A stretch of DNA of 64,000 nucleotides from NCBI RefSeq assembly GCF_000023445.1, contig NC_012881.1:1245501-1309500 (forward strand), written 5' to 3'. The DNA comes from Maridesulfovibrio salexigens DSM 2638 (GTDB lineage Bacteria; Desulfobacterota; Desulfovibrionia; Desulfovibrionales; Desulfovibrionaceae). The notes below the pieces were generated by a model that did not search any database, had not been told where the DNA came from, and worked only from the letters and a program-made list of their open reading frames with translations. Shown one piece after another: positions 12,538 through 20,276 of the stretch; within the stretch, counting starts at the first letter, position 1, and each line of letters starts with the position of its first letter. Position numbers and translations under genes: made by a program.

Positions 12538-12586
12538 GTGGTGTGCACTCAGTTTTTCTTGCAAAAACGAAAAAAATTTGTCAATT

Positions 12587-12610
12587 AAAACCGAGTGGTG
12601 ACTCAGTTTT
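12587..12610. promoter_or_regulatory. Possible second TetR-type operator (imperfect dyad)
   Basis: AAAACCGAGT-ggtg-ACTCAGTTTT is an imperfect palindrome that shares the ACTCAGT arm with the operator at 12771-12790, though with a wider centre. It lies about 160 bp upstream of the promoter. It may be an auxiliary site or a decayed copy. Confidence 0.4.
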
Positions 12611-12735
12611 AAGGATAAAAATGAGTTATGTGAAAAAAATATCATGTCGATTTTAGGGTTAAAAATACATAAAAACACAAATATTAAAAATATTTATAAT
12701 GTTATTTGTGTCATATTTGTGAAAAAATGGACGGG

Positions 12736-12790
12736 TTGACATTGAACCCGGATACAGATTATTTTAGATTCCGACTGAGTGCTCAGTCGG
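12736..12790 (+). promoter_or_regulatory. Promoter and TetR operator of the SulP signalling island
   Basis: TTGACA (12736-12741) and TATTTT (12760-12765) are spaced by 18 bases, so transcription should start near 12772. Exactly there lies the 20-bp dyad CCGACTGAG-TG-CTCAGTCGG (12771-12790), broken only at its two central bases. This is the expected layout for autorepression by the TetR protein whose ATG follows at 12812. Confidence 0.85.
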
Positions 12791-12811: not shown

Positions 12812-13405
12812 ATGACCAAGATGTCCAAAAAGAAGGCGGCAATTCTGGAGGCTGCCACCATCCTATTCGCTAATAAGGGTTTTGCAGACACTTCCATGCA
12901 GGAATTGTCCAAGATGACCGGAGCGGCGGAAGGAACCATTTTCTATCACTTCAAGAATAAGGAGCATCTCCTGTTGACGATCCTTGAGGCAACCAAGGCT
13001 CGTATATTGGAGGAGTTCGAGGCTCATATGGATCAGCATCAGCCTGGAACCGGTATTGAAGAGATGGAAGAGGTGGTTGCGTTTTACCTTCTTCTTGCTG
13101 GACGGATGGAATATCAGTTTCTGCTTCTGCACCGACATTTTCTTTATCAGTTCGCCGAAAGCCGACCTGAATTCCGGGAAAACCTCGAAGCCATCTATAA
13201 CTGTCTGGTCATACTTTTTGAACAGGCTATCCAGAAGGGGTTGGATGATGGCTCCATCGGCGAGGTCAACCCCCGGAAGAGTGCACTCATCATTTTCACG
13301 ATGGTCGATGGTTTAGTGAGATTCAAGAATTTTAATCTCTACGATGCGGGTGCTCTGTTCAATGACTTGATTGAGTCCATCCGTAGGATGTTGAAACCTA
13401 ACTAG
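12812..13405 (+). CDS. TetR/AcrR-family transcriptional repressor
   Basis: 197 residues from ATG 12812, which has GAGGAG five bases upstream; the in-frame ATG 12779 lies within the operator and would precede any transcript leader. The N-terminal helix-turn-helix is typical: ILEAATILFANKGFADTSMQELSKMTGAAEGTIFYHFKNKEHLL. The C-terminal ligand-binding part (about 60-197) is family-variable and all helical. Directly upstream is a 20-bp dyad over its transcription start, so it very likely controls itself and the SulP gene that begins 13 bases after its stop. The inducer is unknown. Confidence 0.93.
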   Translation: MTKMSKKKAAILEAATILFANKGFADTSMQELSKMTGAAEGTIFYHFKNKEHLLLTILEATKARILEEFEAHMDQHQPGTGIEEMEEVVAFYLLLAGRMEYQFLLLHRHFLYQFAESRPEFRENLEAIYNCLVILFEQAIQKGLDDGSIGEVNPRKSALIIFTMVDGLVRFKNFNLYDAGALFNDLIESIRRMLKPN

Positions 13406-13418
13406 GGGTGTTTATCTC

Positions 13419-15554
13419 ATGCTTACTAGAATTTTTCCTTTTCTGGGCTGGTTCAAAAAGTACAGCGGAGCGGCTTTTAGAGCGGACATCATTTCCGGTC
13501 TGACCGTTGCACTGGTTCTTATTCCCCAGTCCATGGCGTATGCGCAGCTTGCAGGTATGCCTGCTTACTACGGTCTTTACGCCTCTCTGCTTCCTCCCAT
13601 GGTGGCAGCGTTGTTCGGCTCCAGCCGTCAGCTCGCTACCGGTCCCGTTGCTGTTGTATCCCTTATGACCGCAGCTTCCCTTGAGCCTCTGGCAACCGCA
13701 GGTAGTGAAGGCTATATCGCCTATGCATTGCTGCTGGCACTGCTGGTAGGTGTCTTCCAGTTCCTGCTCGGCGTTTTGCGCCTCGGTCTGGTTGTTAACT
13801 TCCTGTCTCACCCGGTTGTTAACGGTTTTACCAACGCAGCGGCTATCATTATTGCCTCTTCTCAGCTTTCAAAAATGTTCGGCGTTTACGTGGACAAAGC
13901 TGAGCTCCATTTTGAAACAATTATGAGAGTAATTAAGGGAGCAATGCATTATACCCACCTACCTACTTTGGGTATGGGGATTCTGGCCTTCGCCATCATG
14001 GTCGGGCTGAAGCGGGTTAACCCAAAGATTCCAAACGTACTTTGTGCTGTTGTAATCACCACTCTGCTTTCATGGGCTACCGGCTTTAACCATGATGCGA
14101 GAGTTGATATCTCCGCTATTCAGGATGCTGAGGTACAGACCCTTATTGCTGATTTCAATAAGTCTGTTACCGGCATTGAAGACCTTGCGGTTAAACGTAC
14201 TGAAATTGCGGCCCTTGAAGATAAGGCCAAGGCAGATAAAAACCAGATCGGTTACTACGATGCAGAGCATGATCTTGCGGTAGTTAATTATCAGGTTAAT
14301 GTTCTTAAGCATAAATCCCATGAACTGCGCGCTTCTTTGCGTCATCTCCTCTTTGACGGTGTAGAGCAGGTCGATGGCTCCATGACTTTCTACGTACAGG
14401 GTAAAGCTCCCGAGGGTGTAACCACCGATGGGCGTACCTGGCGTGTAAAAGTTGGGAACAAATTACTCGACACCGCTTCTTTGAAAATGATGGGCGGCGG
14501 GGCTGTTGTCGGAAACGTTCCTTCAGGCTTTCCCGCAATTGCGGTTCCCTCTCTTGATCTTAAGGTTATCCTTAAGCTGCTTCCTTTCGCAGTTATCATT
14601 TCTCTGCTTGGTTTCATGGAAGCTATCTCTATTGCAAAGGCTATGGCTGCCAAAACCGGCCAGAGACTTGACCCTAACCAGGAACTTATCGGTCAGGGGC
14701 TTGCCAACATGCTTGGTGCTTGCGGTTCTGCATACCCTGCTTCCGGTTCGTTCTCCCGTTCCGCAGTTAACCTGCAGGCTGGTGCTGTAACCGGACTTTC
14801 CAGTGTATTTACCTCCGCCATTGTGGCCGTAACCCTGCTGTTTTTCACTCCGCTGCTGTACCATCTGCCGCAGGCTGTTCTGGCTGCCGTTATCATGATG
14901 GCTGTTATCGGACTGATCAACGCATCCGGTTTTATCCACGCATGGAAGGCCCAGAAATATGACGGAGCTATCTCAATTATTTCATTTATTGCAACTCTTG
15001 CCTTTGCACCGCACCTTGATAAGGGTATCATGATTGGTGTGGCTCTTTCGCTTGGCGTGTTTCTTTATAAGAGTATGCGTCCGCGCGTTTCAAGCCTGTC
15101 AAAGGGAGAGGATGAAGTGTTGTGTGATGCAAGTATTCATGGTCTGCGTGAGTGTGATCATATCGCGATTGTCCGTTTTGGCGGTCCCCTGTTCTTCGCA
15201 AACGCTAGTTTTCTTGAAGACCAGATTACCGATCGTCTGATGAATATGCCTAAGTTGAAGCATATCATTCTTGTTTGCAGCGGTATTAACGATATTGACG
15301 CATCCGGCGAAGAAGCTCTTTCCTTGATTGTTGATACTGTCAGAAGCGGTGGAAGAGATATCTCTCTTTCTGGCGTAAATGAGAGTGTTATGGATGTGCT
15401 TGAAAGGACTCATTTGCTTGAGAAAATCGGAAAAGATCATGTGTTTGCAGATACCGACAGTGCTCTTTGCAGAACCCATGCTCAAGCTCATCATGATGGT
15501 ACTGAGGATGATTGTCCGCTCACAACATATTGCCGTGTTCGCGGTAACGCCTAG
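13419..15554 (+). CDS. SulP/SLC26 anion permease with STAS domain and a large central insert
   Basis: 711 residues. The N terminus has the SulP signature (DIISGLTVALVLIPQSMAYAQLAGMPAYYGLY), followed by about 12 membrane segments and a C-terminal STAS domain (about 565-675) with DIDASGEEAL, like the phospho-site loop of SpoIIAA. The family carries sulfate, bicarbonate or other anions. Residues about 226-362 are an extra block between FNHDARVD and NVPSGFPAIAVPSL, where ordinary members have only a short loop. The block is a charged, heptad-like helical stretch followed by a strand-rich part. The C terminus is Cys/His-rich (CRTHAQAHH...CPLTTYC). It is followed closely by a kinase-like/receiver gene, suggesting transport-linked signalling. 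Confidence 0.92.
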   Translation: MLTRIFPFLGWFKKYSGAAFRADIISGLTVALVLIPQSMAYAQLAGMPAYYGLYASLLPPMVAALFGSSRQLATGPVAVVSLMTAASLEPLATAGSEGYIAYALLLALLVGVFQFLLGVLRLGLVVNFLSHPVVNGFTNAAAIIIASSQLSKMFGVYVDKAELHFETIMRVIKGAMHYTHLPTLGMGILAFAIMVGLKRVNPKIPNVLCAVVITTLLSWATGFNHDARVDISAIQDAEVQTLIADFNKSVTGIEDLAVKRTEIAALEDKAKADKNQIGYYDAEHDLAVVNYQVNVLKHKSHELRASLRHLLFDGVEQVDGSMTFYVQGKAPEGVTTDGRTWRVKVGNKLLDTASLKMMGGGAVVGNVPSGFPAIAVPSLDLKVILKLLPFAVIISLLGFMEAISIAKAMAAKTGQRLDPNQELIGQGLANMLGACGSAYPASGSFSRSAVNLQAGAVTGLSSVFTSAIVAVTLLFFTPLLYHLPQAVLAAVIMMAVIGLINASGFIHAWKAQKYDGAISIISFIATLAFAPHLDKGIMIGVALSLGVFLYKSMRPRVSSLSKGEDEVLCDASIHGLRECDHIAIVRFGGPLFFANASFLEDQITDRLMNMPKLKHIILVCSGINDIDASGEEALSLIVDTVRSGGRDISLSGVNESVMDVLERTHLLEKIGKDHVFADTDSALCRTHAQAHHDGTEDDCPLTTYCRVRGNA

Positions 15555-15566
15555 TGGAGGTTGCTA

Positions 15567-16781
15567 ATGTCTGATCTATTTATCTTCAGCGGTCTGTTTT
15601 GTCAGGCTGATGCCATTGTAAAACGCTTGATAGATGACATTAATTTCAAGCTGGTTACAGATGGTGACCTCGTTGCTGATGCTGCAGCGCTTGGAGGAAT
15701 GAGTGAAAAGGCCATAATTAAGGCTTTTTCTCCCAAGACTTCGATTTTCAATAAATTCAGCCATGAAAAAGAACGTGCTATTTCCTGGCTTCGTTTGGCT
15801 CTTGCTCAGAAACTTGCCGAAGGTCAGGCTCTGCTTGTATCTGGAATGGTTACTCAGCTTTTGTCTCAGGAAATCAGCCATATTCTCAAGGTTTGCATTA
15901 TCGATGACTTGCAGAAGAGGGTGGAAATTGCTCGTAATGAGTCCGGTCTTTCCAAAAGTGAGGCTGAAAAAGAAATTCATCATAGTGATGAAGAGCGTGC
16001 CATATGGGTTCGCGACATAACCGGGAACAATGATCCCTGGTCTTCATCTCTCTACGATATGATTATCCCTGCAGATAAAACCGGTGCCGATGAATCCGTA
16101 GCTTTGATTAAAGAACAGCTGAACAACGCAGCTGTAGAGGTTACTGAAGCATCCAAAAAGGCTGTTCAGGATTTCCTGCTTGCTGCTCAGGTTGAGACTG
16201 CGTTGGTAACCAAAGGACATAATGTTCTCGTCAGTGCAAAAGAAGGCAAGGTAACTCTCGCCATTAATAAAAAAGTGCTCATGGTTGACCGCCTTGAGAA
16301 GGATCTGCGCGAAATAGCCGAACCTCTGGAAGGCGTGAAGAGCGTGGATGTGACCTTCGGCAAGGAATACTATGAGGCTGATATCTATCGCCGCATGGAT
16401 TTCGAACTTCCTTCCCGTGTCCTGCTGGTTGACGATGAGCGTGAATTTGTTAAGACCCTCTCTGAACGTTTGCTGCTTCGTGACCTCGGTTCCGCAGTCG
16501 TTTACGACGGTGAGTCCGCACTTGATGTTGTTAAGGATGATGAGCCTGAAGTAATGATTCTTGACCTGAAGATGCCCGGCATCGACGGTATTGAGGTTCT
16601 GCGTCGTGTTAAATCCGACCGTCCCAACATTGAAGTTATCATCCTTACCGGTCACGGTTCCGAAGACGATCGCAAGACCTGTATGGAACTCGGCGCGTTC
16701 GCTTATCTGAATAAGCCTGTGGATATCGATGTTCTCAGCAAGACTCTTAAGGATGCTTACGCCAAAGTGCGTAACGCTTAA
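15567..16781 (+). CDS. Cytidylate-kinase-like (degenerate) domain fused to a response-regulator receiver
   Basis: The start is ATG 15567, with GGAGG six bases upstream. The 404-residue protein has an N-terminal part (about 1-200) that resembles Cytidylate_kin2 proteins in layout (ISWLRLALAQKLAEGQALLVSG, then IDDLQKRVEIARNESGLSKSEAEKEI, then DMIIPADK). Its phosphate loop is degraded: SGLFCQAD replaces the usual GxxGxGK, with no lysine. A small alpha/beta linker (about 205-275, BON-like) leads to a receiver domain with phospho-acceptor Asp near 332 (ILDLKMPGIDGIEVL) and Lys in LNKPVD. It probably binds rather than phosphorylates a nucleotide or effector and is phosphorylated by a neighbouring kinase. 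The domain call is by pattern only. Confidence 0.75.
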   Translation: MSDLFIFSGLFCQADAIVKRLIDDINFKLVTDGDLVADAAALGGMSEKAIIKAFSPKTSIFNKFSHEKERAISWLRLALAQKLAEGQALLVSGMVTQLLSQEISHILKVCIIDDLQKRVEIARNESGLSKSEAEKEIHHSDEERAIWVRDITGNNDPWSSSLYDMIIPADKTGADESVALIKEQLNNAAVEVTEASKKAVQDFLLAAQVETALVTKGHNVLVSAKEGKVTLAINKKVLMVDRLEKDLREIAEPLEGVKSVDVTFGKEYYEADIYRRMDFELPSRVLLVDDEREFVKTLSERLLLRDLGSAVVYDGESALDVVKDDEPEVMILDLKMPGIDGIEVLRRVKSDRPNIEVIILTGHGSEDDRKTCMELGAFAYLNKPVDIDVLSKTLKDAYAKVRNA

Positions 16782-16805
16782 TAACTAACCTCTCCGGGGC
16801 GGGAC

Positions 16806-18545
16806 ATGAACATAAAGGGAATATTCAAGCCGGAATTCTGGGATGCGGACCCCAAGTCCGCAGGACCTTACAAGCAGCTGTTTGACTACAAGCGAATCTG
16901 GCAGCTTTGTATTGGAATCCTTGTTGCGGTATCTCTTGTTCCCATTTTGATTATGGCTTCCATCGATTTCAGCGTCACCCGGGGAGCGATTATATCTGAA
17001 AATACCCTGGAGGCGGCTAGGACTACGTCCAATACCCGCCGTTCGGTTTCTTACTTTCTGGAGGAGCGGAAATCAGCATTACAGCTGCTGGTTGAAATGC
17101 ATGATTTCCGCTCTTTCCATGATCCTGAGAAACTGGGTGAGATGCTGAGTTCATTGAAAAAAAGTTTCGGTGGATTCATTGATCTCGGTGTTATTAACAA
17201 AGCTGGTAAGCAGGTTGCCTATGTTGGTCCTTACAATCTTGAGGGCCGGGAATATGCAGGACAGGACTGGTTCGAGCAGACTGTGGAGCAGGGCATTTAC
17301 ATCAGTGAAGTCTTTCTGGGATTTCGAGATAGCCCGCACCTTGTCATCGCCTTAAAGCATATGCTTGACGAGAAGACCAACCATTTCAAGATTCTGCGTG
17401 CTACTCTCGATACCAAGCAGTTTAACGGAATTCTGTCTTCATTGGTTCTTTCTGCCGGGGAAGATGTCTTTCTGGTGAACAGGGAAGGGATTCTACAAAC
17501 TCCATCCAAATGGAACGGTGAGATTTTCTCAAAGATAGGTTTTGAACTCCCTGAAGAATCCTTCCGTACCAAAGTGGAACAAATTTCTTATCGCAAGGGT
17601 GCTCCGGCCATGGTTGGCTACGCCTATCTTGAAAATACCCCTTTCGTACTTCTCTATGTGAAGACTGAAGCCGAGTACATGGGCGGTTGGCAGAGCTCCC
17701 GCGATACGGTGACCTGGTTCACCATTATCAGTATTGCAGTCATTATTCTGGTTATGTGGGCGGTAGCTTCTTATCTGGTTGATCGTATCTACATAGCTGA
17801 TATGACCCGTTCCAAGGCTTTGCAGCAGATGGAACATCATAATCGCATGGCCTCCATTGGACGTCTGGCTGCCGGGGTGGCTCACGAGATCAATAACCCC
17901 TTGGCTATCATCAATGAAAAAGCCGGACTGCTTAAAGATCTTTTTACTTTCAGCAAGGCTTACGATGCTGATGAGCGGGTTATAGGACTCGTGGATTCAG
18001 TTATCGGTTCTGTTGAACGTTGCGGACGGATTACCAAGCGGCTGCTGGGATTTTCCCGTCAGACCGATATGGAATTTCGTCCGGTTTATCCACGTAAGGT
18101 GATCGATACAGTTCTGAGTTTTCTGGATAAGGAAGCTGAGTATCGCTGCATTGATGTGAGTGTGGACGTGGATGATGGAATTTATGAGGTGGTCACTGAT
18201 AGAGGCAAGCTTGAGCAGGTTTTACTGAACCTGATTAACAATGCCTTTCAGGCCATGAAAGACGGGGGAGCCCTTTGGATCAGGGTTGAGCGTGGAGATG
18301 AAGGGCAAGTGCTGTTTTCAGTGAAAGATAACGGATGTGGCATTCCCGAATCTGACTTGAAAAGAATTTTTGAACCGTTTTATTCAACTAAAAAACAATC
18401 AGGCGGAACCGGGCTGGGATTATCTATTACCTATGGTCTGGTGCAGGATCTTGGCGGTGAAATGAAGGTTCAGAGCCAGCTGGGTAAAGGTACTGAGTTC
18501 AGCTTCATGCTGCCTGTTGTTCCCAATATAAATGGGGAGAGTTAG
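16806..18545 (+). CDS. Membrane sensor histidine kinase of the SulP island
   Basis: 579 residues. A membrane segment lies at about 30-52, an extracytoplasmic Cache-like sensor at about 55-295 (NTRRSVSYFLEERKSALQLLV, then DLGVINKAGKQVAYVGPYNLEG, typical of dCache folds), and a second membrane segment at about 300-325. HisKA follows with GRLAAGVAHEINNPLAIINEKAGLL (phospho-His near 361), and an intact HATPase with NLINNAFQAM, DNGCGI and GGTGLGLS. It is complete, so it is the likely phosphate donor for the receivers around it. GGGGCGGG precedes the ATG; only 24 bases separate it from the upstream gene. Confidence 0.92.
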   Translation: MNIKGIFKPEFWDADPKSAGPYKQLFDYKRIWQLCIGILVAVSLVPILIMASIDFSVTRGAIISENTLEAARTTSNTRRSVSYFLEERKSALQLLVEMHDFRSFHDPEKLGEMLSSLKKSFGGFIDLGVINKAGKQVAYVGPYNLEGREYAGQDWFEQTVEQGIYISEVFLGFRDSPHLVIALKHMLDEKTNHFKILRATLDTKQFNGILSSLVLSAGEDVFLVNREGILQTPSKWNGEIFSKIGFELPEESFRTKVEQISYRKGAPAMVGYAYLENTPFVLLYVKTEAEYMGGWQSSRDTVTWFTIISIAVIILVMWAVASYLVDRIYIADMTRSKALQQMEHHNRMASIGRLAAGVAHEINNPLAIINEKAGLLKDLFTFSKAYDADERVIGLVDSVIGSVERCGRITKRLLGFSRQTDMEFRPVYPRKVIDTVLSFLDKEAEYRCIDVSVDVDDGIYEVVTDRGKLEQVLLNLINNAFQAMKDGGALWIRVERGDEGQVLFSVKDNGCGIPESDLKRIFEPFYSTKKQSGGTGLGLSITYGLVQDLGGEMKVQSQLGKGTEFSFMLPVVPNINGES

Positions 18546-18548
18546 TCG

Positions 18549-18905
18549 ATGAAGATTTTATTGGTTGATGATGAATCAGAACTGGTTTCAGCGTTGGCGG
18601 AAAGACTTTCCTTTAGGGGATTTGATGCTGATTGGGCCTGTTCCGGGGCGGAAGCAATAGATAAAGTTAAAAATAATGAATACGATCTCGCGGTTTTGGA
18701 TGTGAAAATGCCTCGTATGAGCGGGCTGGAGCTCCGGGCCGAGCTGAACAATATTCGTTCAGGTATGAAATATATTTTTCTTTCGGGCCACGGTTCGGAA
18801 GATGATTACAAGGCGGGAGCGGCCGAAGCAGAGTGTTATCTGGTCAAGCCCGTTAAGATTGAAGAGCTGGTGGAAAAGATCAATCTGGCTCTGGGATCTA
18901 AATAA
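18549..18905 (+). CDS. Single-domain response regulator (first of the duplicated pair)
   Basis: 118 residues, a receiver domain and nothing else: LLVDDESELVSALAERLSFRGFDADWACSG, phospho-acceptor Asp near 51 in AVLDVKMPRMSG, the Ser/Thr switch in FLSGHGSEDD, and Lys in YLVKPVK. It follows the kinase gene by three bases. Its N-terminal helix matches the receivers at 15567 and 19595, suggesting duplication within the island. Without an output domain it must act by protein contact or phosphate relay. Confidence 0.93.
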   Translation: MKILLVDDESELVSALAERLSFRGFDADWACSGAEAIDKVKNNEYDLAVLDVKMPRMSGLELRAELNNIRSGMKYIFLSGHGSEDDYKAGAAEAECYLVKPVKIEELVEKINLALGSK

Positions 18906-18925
18906 ACATCCACAAGGAGTATCGC

Positions 18926-19558
18926 ATGGGAGCATCAGCACAGCATAAAGACCGTGACGGACTCTGCTTTTTCGGGCAGATCAGCGCGGCTATTTCCCAT
19001 GACCTCAAGAATGTCTTGGCAATCATCAATGAAGATGCCGGCCTGTTGCAGGATTTTTCACTCATGGCTGCGCAGGGCATGGAACTTGATCCCCAACGGC
19101 TGATTAAGTTGGCTGAGAAAATTCAGGGGCAGGTCAAAAGAGGTGACGGAATCATCAAAAACATGAATCGGTTTGCGCATAGTGTGGACCTTCCGGTATG
19201 TGATGTTGATTTCCGCGAACTCACGGAACTGGTTATTTCCCTGTTGACCCGCATGGCCTCACGTAAGTGTGTCACTGTCACTCTCAAAGAAGGTGAACAG
19301 GTCAACGGCAAGGGCGACCCGTTTACTATCCAGATGCTCATGGCTAAAGCTCTTGAGTATTCTATGGATAGTGCCGGCAGGGATGGAAAACTTGGCATCG
19401 AGGTAAGCTCTGTAGGTGGCGTTAATGCCGTAGCAATTTCAGGATTGAGTGAAGTCCTTTCTGAAGAACAACTTGCAGAGCTTGAATCAATTTCCGTTAA
19501 AGCGGGTGCTAAATCCGCATATGTCCAGCAGGACAATATATTAACTCTTAATTTTTAA
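18926..19558 (+). CDS. Histidine-kinase-like protein lacking a working ATP site
   Basis: 210 residues. The dimerisation and phospho-acceptor region is well preserved (FGQISAAISHDLKNVLAIINEDAGLL, His near 26) and closely matches NPLAIINEKAGLL of the kinase at 16806. The region that should be the HATPase (about 110-210) lacks the N box Asn, the DxGxG motif and the GTGLGL loop. It has no membrane segment. It is therefore likely a phosphotransfer or scaffold protein derived from a kinase, with a phosphorylatable histidine but dependent on a partner for phosphate. It sits between two receivers, 20 bases after one and 36 before the next. Confidence 0.8.
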   Translation: MGASAQHKDRDGLCFFGQISAAISHDLKNVLAIINEDAGLLQDFSLMAAQGMELDPQRLIKLAEKIQGQVKRGDGIIKNMNRFAHSVDLPVCDVDFRELTELVISLLTRMASRKCVTVTLKEGEQVNGKGDPFTIQMLMAKALEYSMDSAGRDGKLGIEVSSVGGVNAVAISGLSEVLSEEQLAELESISVKAGAKSAYVQQDNILTLNF

Positions 19559-19594
19559 TTACTTTAAACTGCTTCATGCAGGTGGAGAGAAAAG

Positions 19595-20023
19595 ATGGCA
19601 GAAAAAGTACTTCTGGTTGATGACGAAAAGGAATTTGTTGAAGGTTTGGCTGAACGTATGGAACTGCGCGGTATGAATGTAACCGCATGTACCAATCCGC
19701 AGGAAGCTCTCGACAAGGTTGATTCTGAAACTTTCGATGCAATTGTACTCGATCTCCAGATGCCCGGAATCGATGGTATCGAAGCCCTTAAGCACATCAG
19801 AAAGTCCAGACCCGAAATGCAGGTTATCCTGCTTAGCGGTCACGCAACCGTAGAGAAAGGCATTGAGGCAATGAAACTCGGCGCGATGGATTTTGTTGAA
19901 AAGCCTGCCGACATCAACGTGTTGACCGACAAGATCAAGAAAGCACAGGCTAAGAAGATGATCCTCGTGGAAGAAAAGACCGAGGAAAAAGTTAAGGATA
20001 TTCTGAGCCACAAGGGCTGGTAA
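19595..20023 (+). CDS. Response regulator receiver with charged C-terminal tail
   Basis: 142 residues. The receiver domain is standard (LLVDDEKEFVEGLAERMELRGMN, phospho-acceptor Asp near 53 in IVLDLQMPGIDGIEAL, LLSGHATVEKG, and Lys in EKPAD). A 20-residue Lys/Glu-rich tail ends in HKGW and has no DNA-binding features. It resembles the receiver part of the 15567 protein more than receivers elsewhere in the window. It is the last gene before a strong terminator, so it closes the transcription unit begun by the TetR gene. Confidence 0.92.
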   Translation: MAEKVLLVDDEKEFVEGLAERMELRGMNVTACTNPQEALDKVDSETFDAIVLDLQMPGIDGIEALKHIRKSRPEMQVILLSGHATVEKGIEAMKLGAMDFVEKPADINVLTDKIKKAQAKKMILVEEKTEEKVKDILSHKGW

Positions 20024-20051
20024 ACTAAATAGTATATTACTGACTATAAAC

Positions 20052-20092
20052 AAAAAAAGCCCCCTACTCTTTTGGAGTAGGGGGCTTTTTTT
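20052..20092 (+). terminator. Intrinsic terminator closing the SulP island
   Basis: A perfect stem, GCCCCCTACTC pairing with GAGTAGGGGGC, is flanked by seven A and seven T residues. The A-tract also allows it to work for minus-strand transcripts. Confidence 0.95.
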
Positions 20093-20276
20093 GTTTATGT
20101 TCATCAGTGGATGTTTATATCTGTCGTATTTATAGGCTGTTATGAGTCGAATCACCGGTGAGGGAAAAATTATAACACGATTTGTTTTGCTCCGGCAGAA
20201 TGGCTGTGCTAGAGCTCCGGACAATTTGCTTCTCACAGAAGTGGTATACTTATAATTATTATACAAAGAGGTTAGA

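Follow-up and report, generated by a model that had tools for sequence, protein, structure and literature searches.

The window analysed here is a stretch of 64,000 nucleotides from Maridesulfovibrio salexigens DSM 2638 (Desulfovibrionaceae; the genome is one 4.29-Mb contig), and all coordinates are window positions. A single operon on the + strand occupies positions 12812–20095, with the gene order TetR-SulP-CytK/REC-HK-REC1-HPT-REC2, a palindrome before it and a strong terminator after it. The labels HK, REC1 and REC2 are used for the kinase at 16806 and the receivers at 18549 and 19595, respectively, and HPT denotes the H-box protein encoded at 18926–19558, a dead-kinase histidine phosphotransferase candidate, on which this work is centred.

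The sulfate transporter operon and its signalling genes

All genes described below lie on the + strand. The operon starts with a TetR-family repressor (12812–13405; Pfam TetR_N, 3.4e-14), whose place as first gene is conserved in relatives, followed by a SulP-type sulfate transporter with a STAS domain (13419–15554; 438.8 bits over the TIGR00815 cut-off, with a Pfam match for STAS). The third gene (15567–16781) encodes CytK-REC, a 404-aa fusion of a Cytidylate_kin2-like domain (Pfam) and a receiver. The first-pass annotation of this DNA had listed a receiver at 15567, which is indeed present, but as the C-terminal domain of the fusion (about 16419–16778), with its phospho-accepting aspartate, D333, at 16563–16565. 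HK (16806–18545) is a complete sensor histidine kinase with a dCache sensor, a DHp domain carrying the phospho-accepting His360 (17883–17885) and a HATPase_c domain with all boxes (Pfam), and its motif columns are conserved in 68 sequences. Downstream follow REC1, a single-domain receiver of 118 aa (18549–18905; Pfam Response_reg) in which the phospho-accepting D51 (codon at 18699–18701) is invariant in 62 sequences, HPT itself (18926–19558; 210 aa, with the ribosome-binding site AAGGAG), and REC2, a single-domain receiver of 142 aa (19595–20023; Pfam; phospho-accepting D53 codon at 19751–19753). The open reading frames of these last three genes were confirmed as first annotated, and the H-box strings quoted at that stage, SHDLKNVLAIINEDAGLL and AHEINNPLAIINEKAGLL, were exact. 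The operon ends in a strong intrinsic terminator (20050–20094), a 20-pair stem followed by a T-rich tail.

In the alignment, the phospho-accepting aspartate and the acid pocket are intact in all three receivers of the operon. Pfam found a DNA-binding domain on none of them, REC1 and REC2 being receiver-only and the third being fused to Cytidylate_kin2.

Motif loss, predicted fold and ancestry of HPT

The motifs of HPT were assessed in an alignment that set 80 HPT proteins beside 68 kinases from operons of this type and 67 from the M. salexigens genome. The H-box histidine is present in all 80 HPT proteins, followed at +1 by Glu in 73 and Asp in 7, and at +4 by Asn in 80/80; in the protein studied here these residues are His25 (codon at 18998–19000), the predicted phospho-acceptor, with Asp26 and Asn29. 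As in class I (HisKA) kinases, this histidine lies in a DHp hairpin, but the N, D/G1, F and G2 boxes of that class are absent: neither the N-box Asn479 nor the D-box Asp508 is kept in a single HPT protein (0/80 each), and the F box and the GxG of the G2 box are deleted in 80/80. This bears out the earlier statement that the protein has no N, G1 or G2 box. In Pfam, the only match of the M. salexigens HPT is a sub-threshold one to HisKA, with none to HATPase_c, and across the family HisKA is matched by 75 of the 80 members and HATPase_c by none. The HPT proteins also share a signature, N81-x-F-A-H85 (19166–19180), in which N and H are each found in 80/80, whereas the kinases carry Leu414 (68/68) and Arg418 (67/68) in these columns. 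The protein is under purifying selection, with a dN of 0.055 and a dS of 0.599 against one close relative (dN/dS about 0.09).

A structure prediction of HPT with AlphaFold2, built on 80 sequences, gave a DHp-CA subunit with a pLDDT of 93.8 and a pTM of 0.86, as the check proposed with the first-pass annotation had called for. The DHp hairpin spans residues 4–86 (18935–19183; helices 4–49 and 56–86) and is followed by a CA-like sandwich (residues 89–210; 19190–19555), in which a short loop stands in place of the ATP lid. The retained CA-like fold could be taken to mean that HPT still binds ATP through an unusual pocket and autophosphorylates. With the N, D, F and G2 boxes missing in 80/80 and the lid deleted, this is highly improbable. 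In structure searches, the best among the matches listed was the class I kinase HK853 for the whole protein (4jau; Z 16.0, 186 residues, 7.4 Å) and ThkA for the CA domain (3a0z; Z 16.5, 122 residues, 2.6 Å). ChpT and Spo0B were not among the 50 structural matches listed, the top ones of which were kinases, and this has no bearing against a structural likeness to them.

By the sequence tests run, HPT falls outside the Spo0B, ChpT and PhyT families. None of the 80 members matched the Spo0B, ChpT/HPTransfase or Hpt families of Pfam, and a PDB sequence search at E ≤ 10 returned 39 hits without a Spo0B or ChpT chain among them. The lack of a Pfam Hpt match in the 80 members and the DHp-CA architecture of the model likewise set HPT apart from monomeric four-helix Hpt domains, while the HRxxN motif of the PhyT type is replaced by HE or HD in 80/80.

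Many genera have HPT relatives, with a length of about 200–225 aa and in most cases with a gene for a kinase of about 580–610 aa upstream; the ATP boxes are missing in all that were aligned. Scanning contigs yielded 261 confirmed relatives, from which 80 loci were retained; these come from Desulfovibrionales, Desulfobacterales, Desulfobulbales and Desulfoarculaceae, together with two gammaproteobacterial metagenome-assembled genomes. Of 297 genomes sampled across the phylum, 47 contained an HPT match at E ≤ 1e-25. Counting only loci in which the contig was long enough to show the gene in question, HPT is accompanied by REC2 in 71/73, HK in 59/63, CytK-REC in 52/56, SulP in 48/53, REC1 in 57/71 and TetR in 31/42. 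In other genera (loci L212 and L214–L217), HK-(REC)-HPT cassettes adjoin TauE/SafE rather than SulP.

Scored against the 67 kinases of its own genome, the HPT profile ranked the neighbouring HK first with 80.4 bits. Next came kinases belonging to two further transporter cassettes (77.9 and 71.9), and the remainder scored 55 and below. In a full-length tree with 26 other own-genome kinases, HPT and the orthologues of the neighbouring HK formed one clade (99/100), and HPT by itself grouped at 100/100, with a long stem. At full length, the phylogeny suggested at the outset thus groups HPT with the lineage of its neighbour and not with distant paralogs. When HPT and HK sequences from the TauE/SafE cassettes were added, all HPT proteins grouped together, and the sub-trees of the TauE-type HPT and HK matched.

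These data support an origin of HPT, as read from its sequence, in an ancient kinase duplication with loss of the ATP site, fixed in a conserved operon. The duplication would predate the diversification of the Desulfobacterota, with the ATP lid and the N, D, F and G boxes being lost and the receiver-docking helix being kept. The first-pass annotation had proposed a tandem duplication followed by loss of catalysis, and the loss of the ATP site holds, while the kinship to the neighbouring HK is supported by the full-length tree; the duplication was not local, however, as gene order and dead ATP site are common across the Desulfobacterota. A recent event within this genome, in which a second kinase-receiver pair arose and its kinase then decayed, would account for the likeness of the motifs of the neighbours. 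It is nevertheless barely credible, given that most loci share the gene order, that the ATP site is dead in 80/80 across orders, that HPT is under purifying selection and that the receivers belong to three separate ancient clades.

Receivers and a probable shared docking surface

In the receiver tree, CytK-REC, REC1 and REC2 form three separate clades, each with 99% support across orders, which contradicts the idea of a second kinase-receiver pair made here and indicates that the receivers split long before the present genome. The three clades are nested in a loose group (87%), consisting mostly of receivers of the same two cassettes. The motif VDDExEFVxxLxERLxLRG, said to be shared by the three, proved to be approximate as a consensus, the actual strings being VDDEREFVKTLSERLLLRD, VDDESELVSALAERLSFRG and VDDEKEFVEGLAERMELRG, though the likeness itself is above chance. 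It is concentrated in helix α1, where the three receivers are mutual best matches with 56–61% identity. Beyond α1 they are about 37–41% alike among the matches listed, and other receivers of the genome match equally well or better. Of 200,000 random triplets of own-genome receivers, 19 reached the mean α1 identity, whereas 2.5% reached the identity seen outside α1 and 0.2% the difference between the two. Since α1 is the kinase-docking helix, the motif would mark a common docking surface rather than recent copying.

A corresponding pattern is seen on the kinase side. In known complexes the receiver docks on DHp α1 below the histidine, as discussed for ChpT (PMC3433190). In this helix HPT is 61% identical to the neighbouring HK, which ranks first, while the other kinases of the genome average 29%; in α2, HPT and HK share only about 26–27%. 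The simplest reading of these sequence comparisons is that one docking interface has been retained by HK, HPT and the three receivers, and the paired helices on the two sides may thus represent a case in which docking is kept and catalysis lost. No co-variation between HPT and HK was seen at the species level, α1 identity being 0.61 both within the same genome and across genomes (permutation p 0.57).

The close kinship of HPT and HK and their 61% identity in α1, together with the co-inheritance of the pair in SulP and TauE/SafE cassettes, could alternatively point to a pseudokinase partner, an allosteric subunit or second phospho-acceptor that forms a DHp heterodimer with HK and is either phosphorylated on His25 in trans or holds HK inactive. 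The divergence of α2 lends no support to a conserved interface of this kind, and the receivers on both sides of HPT in most loci speak against it, making a heterodimer distinctly improbable.

Two further features concern the parts of CytK-REC and REC2 outside the receiver fold. Pfam found Cytidylate_kin2 in 47/47 aligned CytK-REC members, and a motif S-x-F-N-x-F-x-x-E-x-E is conserved (S59, F61, N62 and E69), but in this domain (15567–16415) the P-loop region is degenerate in the alignment, with no recognisable P-loop (IFSGLFCQADAIV vs ISRDAMSGGGHVA in a stand-alone relative). The Cytidylate_kin2-like domain is thereby a second dead kinase of the operon. REC2, most often 142 aa long, has at its C-terminus a charged, conserved tail of about 27 aa (19941–20020) whose last residues are KGW. 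Spo0A and Spo0F are among the solved relatives nearest to the CytK receiver.

A proposed phosphorelay and its place among known systems

HPT looks like a phosphotransfer-type protein, as first suggested, and we infer, with moderate confidence, that it is a dimeric, kinase-derived phosphotransferase resembling Spo0B and ChpT, which relays phosphate from HK through REC1 and HPT to CytK-REC and/or REC2. The dCache kinase HK would autophosphorylate on His360, and the phosphate would go on to a single-domain receiver, REC1 being the most likely one; His25 of HPT would take it from there and hand it to the receiver of CytK-REC and/or to REC2 as the output. The joint travel of HPT and HK into TauE/SafE-linked cassettes, with matching sub-trees, is counted in favour of such a relay. 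As a DNA-binding domain is absent from all receivers of the operon, the output is probably a protein contact with SulP, through which sulfate uptake would be controlled, with the TetR repressor setting transcription. The unrecognisable P-loop of CytK-REC and the conserved tail of REC2 make control of SulP by protein contact plausible.

Several observations weigh against this relay. REC1 is missing in 14 of the 71 loci that keep HPT and can thus not be the sole donor; in these loci CytK-REC or REC2 would have to donate. A tree of the DHp domain, which offers too few columns, does not settle the ancestry, and other kinase parents remain compatible with it (approximately unbiased test, p 0.33, 0.06 and 0.30). 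The identity of the output receiver is suggested by conservation only, and the HExxN-type H-box is equally what a phosphatase would need.

The last point leads to the possibility that HPT acts as a phosphatase or phosphate sink dedicated to one of the receivers, docking it through the retained DHp helix and stripping its phosphate without any relay. Asn at H+4, a position linked to the phosphatase activity of HExxN kinases, is invariant in 80/80, and the invariant N81 and H85, which replace the Leu and Arg of the kinases, could serve hydrolysis. Yet His25 itself is invariant along with the acid at +1, the presence of at least two receivers beside the kinase is easier to reconcile with a relay than with a simple switch, and Spo0B likewise has Asn at +4 while being a transferase. 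A phosphatase is accordingly considered unlikely, and the relay through HPT is preferred.

Among the closest parallels to this relay is the Spo0F-Spo0B-Spo0A system of Bacillus subtilis, which also combines a kinase, a single-domain receiver, a dimeric DHp-type transferase with a non-catalytic C-terminal domain, and a further receiver. The predicted architecture of HPT agrees with the DHp and non-catalytic C-terminal domain of Spo0B, whose H-box is HDxxN. In contrast to the Spo0 relay, HPT has no sequence match to Spo0B, and the operon has no DNA-binding output receiver. ChpT of Caulobacter crescentus is likewise a homodimer of a DHp and an atypical Bergerat domain in which the ATP lid is replaced, and it crystallised without bound ATP and did not autophosphorylate (PMC3433190); it differs in serving the hybrid kinase CckA and the receiver CtrA, and its HPTransfase model is matched by 0/80 HPT proteins. 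PhyT of Sphingomonas melonis also derives from a kinase and has a degenerate ATPase domain; it takes phosphate from a single-domain receiver and delivers it to an output receiver (PMC5898713), whereas HPT is a 210-aa protein of the HD/HExxN type without a sensor domain. If the proposed relay is correct, HPT represents one more case in which a phosphotransferase arose from a kinase.

In dissimilatory sulfate reduction, taking up sulfate is the first step and an energy-costly one. The main text of a recent study describes a SulP cluster of sulfate reducers, reported in Desulfobacteraceae and Dv. salexigens, in which SulP occurs with two-component genes including a cache-domain kinase, a TetR protein and a palindromic operator (PMC11887813, Sci Adv 2025). 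The operon studied here agrees with that description in its SulP, cache-domain kinase, receivers, TetR and upstream palindrome. There, the response regulators are called WalR-type and drawn acting on promoters, whereas the present operon holds no WalR (DNA-binding) receiver and has a dead-kinase HPT between its receivers. The main text of PMC11887813 names no phosphotransferase for the cluster, two-component genes are not a topic of the comparative sulfate-transporter study PMC5840216, and our search of one literature library found neither a phosphorelay in sulfate uptake nor a Spo0B/ChpT-like protein in Desulfo- species. The SulP cluster is already published, and what is added here is the candidate phosphotransferase between receivers free of DNA-binding domains. 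The proposed relay, in which a dead kinase leads to receivers without a recognisable DNA-binding domain, contrasts with the published promoter-acting model, and the five proteins form a concrete set for testing it. As a more tentative extension, which we regard as possible though somewhat doubtful, HPT proteins may form an unrecognised class of phosphotransferases marked by N-x-F-A-H in place of L-x-F-S-R, and a relay with no DNA-binding receiver as its output may gate SulP and TauE/SafE transporters via the dead nucleotide-kinase domain and the receiver tail, so that sulfate uptake would be under post-translational phosphorelay control.

Related cassettes and the upstream region

The two gammaproteobacterial metagenome-assembled genomes (L061 and L079) hold the cassette, the latter as a near-complete operon, which suggests horizontal transfer or mis-binning. 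L212, one of the TauE/SafE-linked loci, encodes a receiver resembling the CytK type as a protein of its own, lacking the kinase-like domain. The M. salexigens genome has a TauE/SafE cassette of its own (contig positions 2402000–2415000), in which a dCache-type kinase and a PPDK-like protein accompany four stand-alone receivers, and a DASS transporter cassette (contig positions 2033000–2051000) encoding a REC, a CBS-REC, a PPDK-like protein and the series HK-REC-HK2-REC. The topology of the DASS cassette is that of the SulP cassette, but its second kinase, HK2, is complete and of the active type; in related transporter cassettes, the slot after the first kinase thus holds either an active kinase or an HPT. 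HK2 was considered as a parent of HPT and rejected, with an HPT profile score of 47 bits vs 80 and a position outside the HPT-HK clade.

Upstream of the operon, a consensus scan gave a sigma70-like promoter candidate, TTGACA-18-TATTTT (12736–12765, + strand), which showed no enrichment over shuffles and serves as a lead only. An inverted-repeat search found a perfect palindrome, CCGACTGAGTGCTCAGTCGG (12771–12790), likely to be the TetR operator, and a second, imperfect one (12585–12612); according to the main text of PMC11887813, sulP clusters are preceded by a 16-bp palindrome. The two palindromes, both upstream of tetR, are related, with the cores ACCGAGT..ACTCAGT and ACTGAGTGCTCAGT, and both are probably operators.
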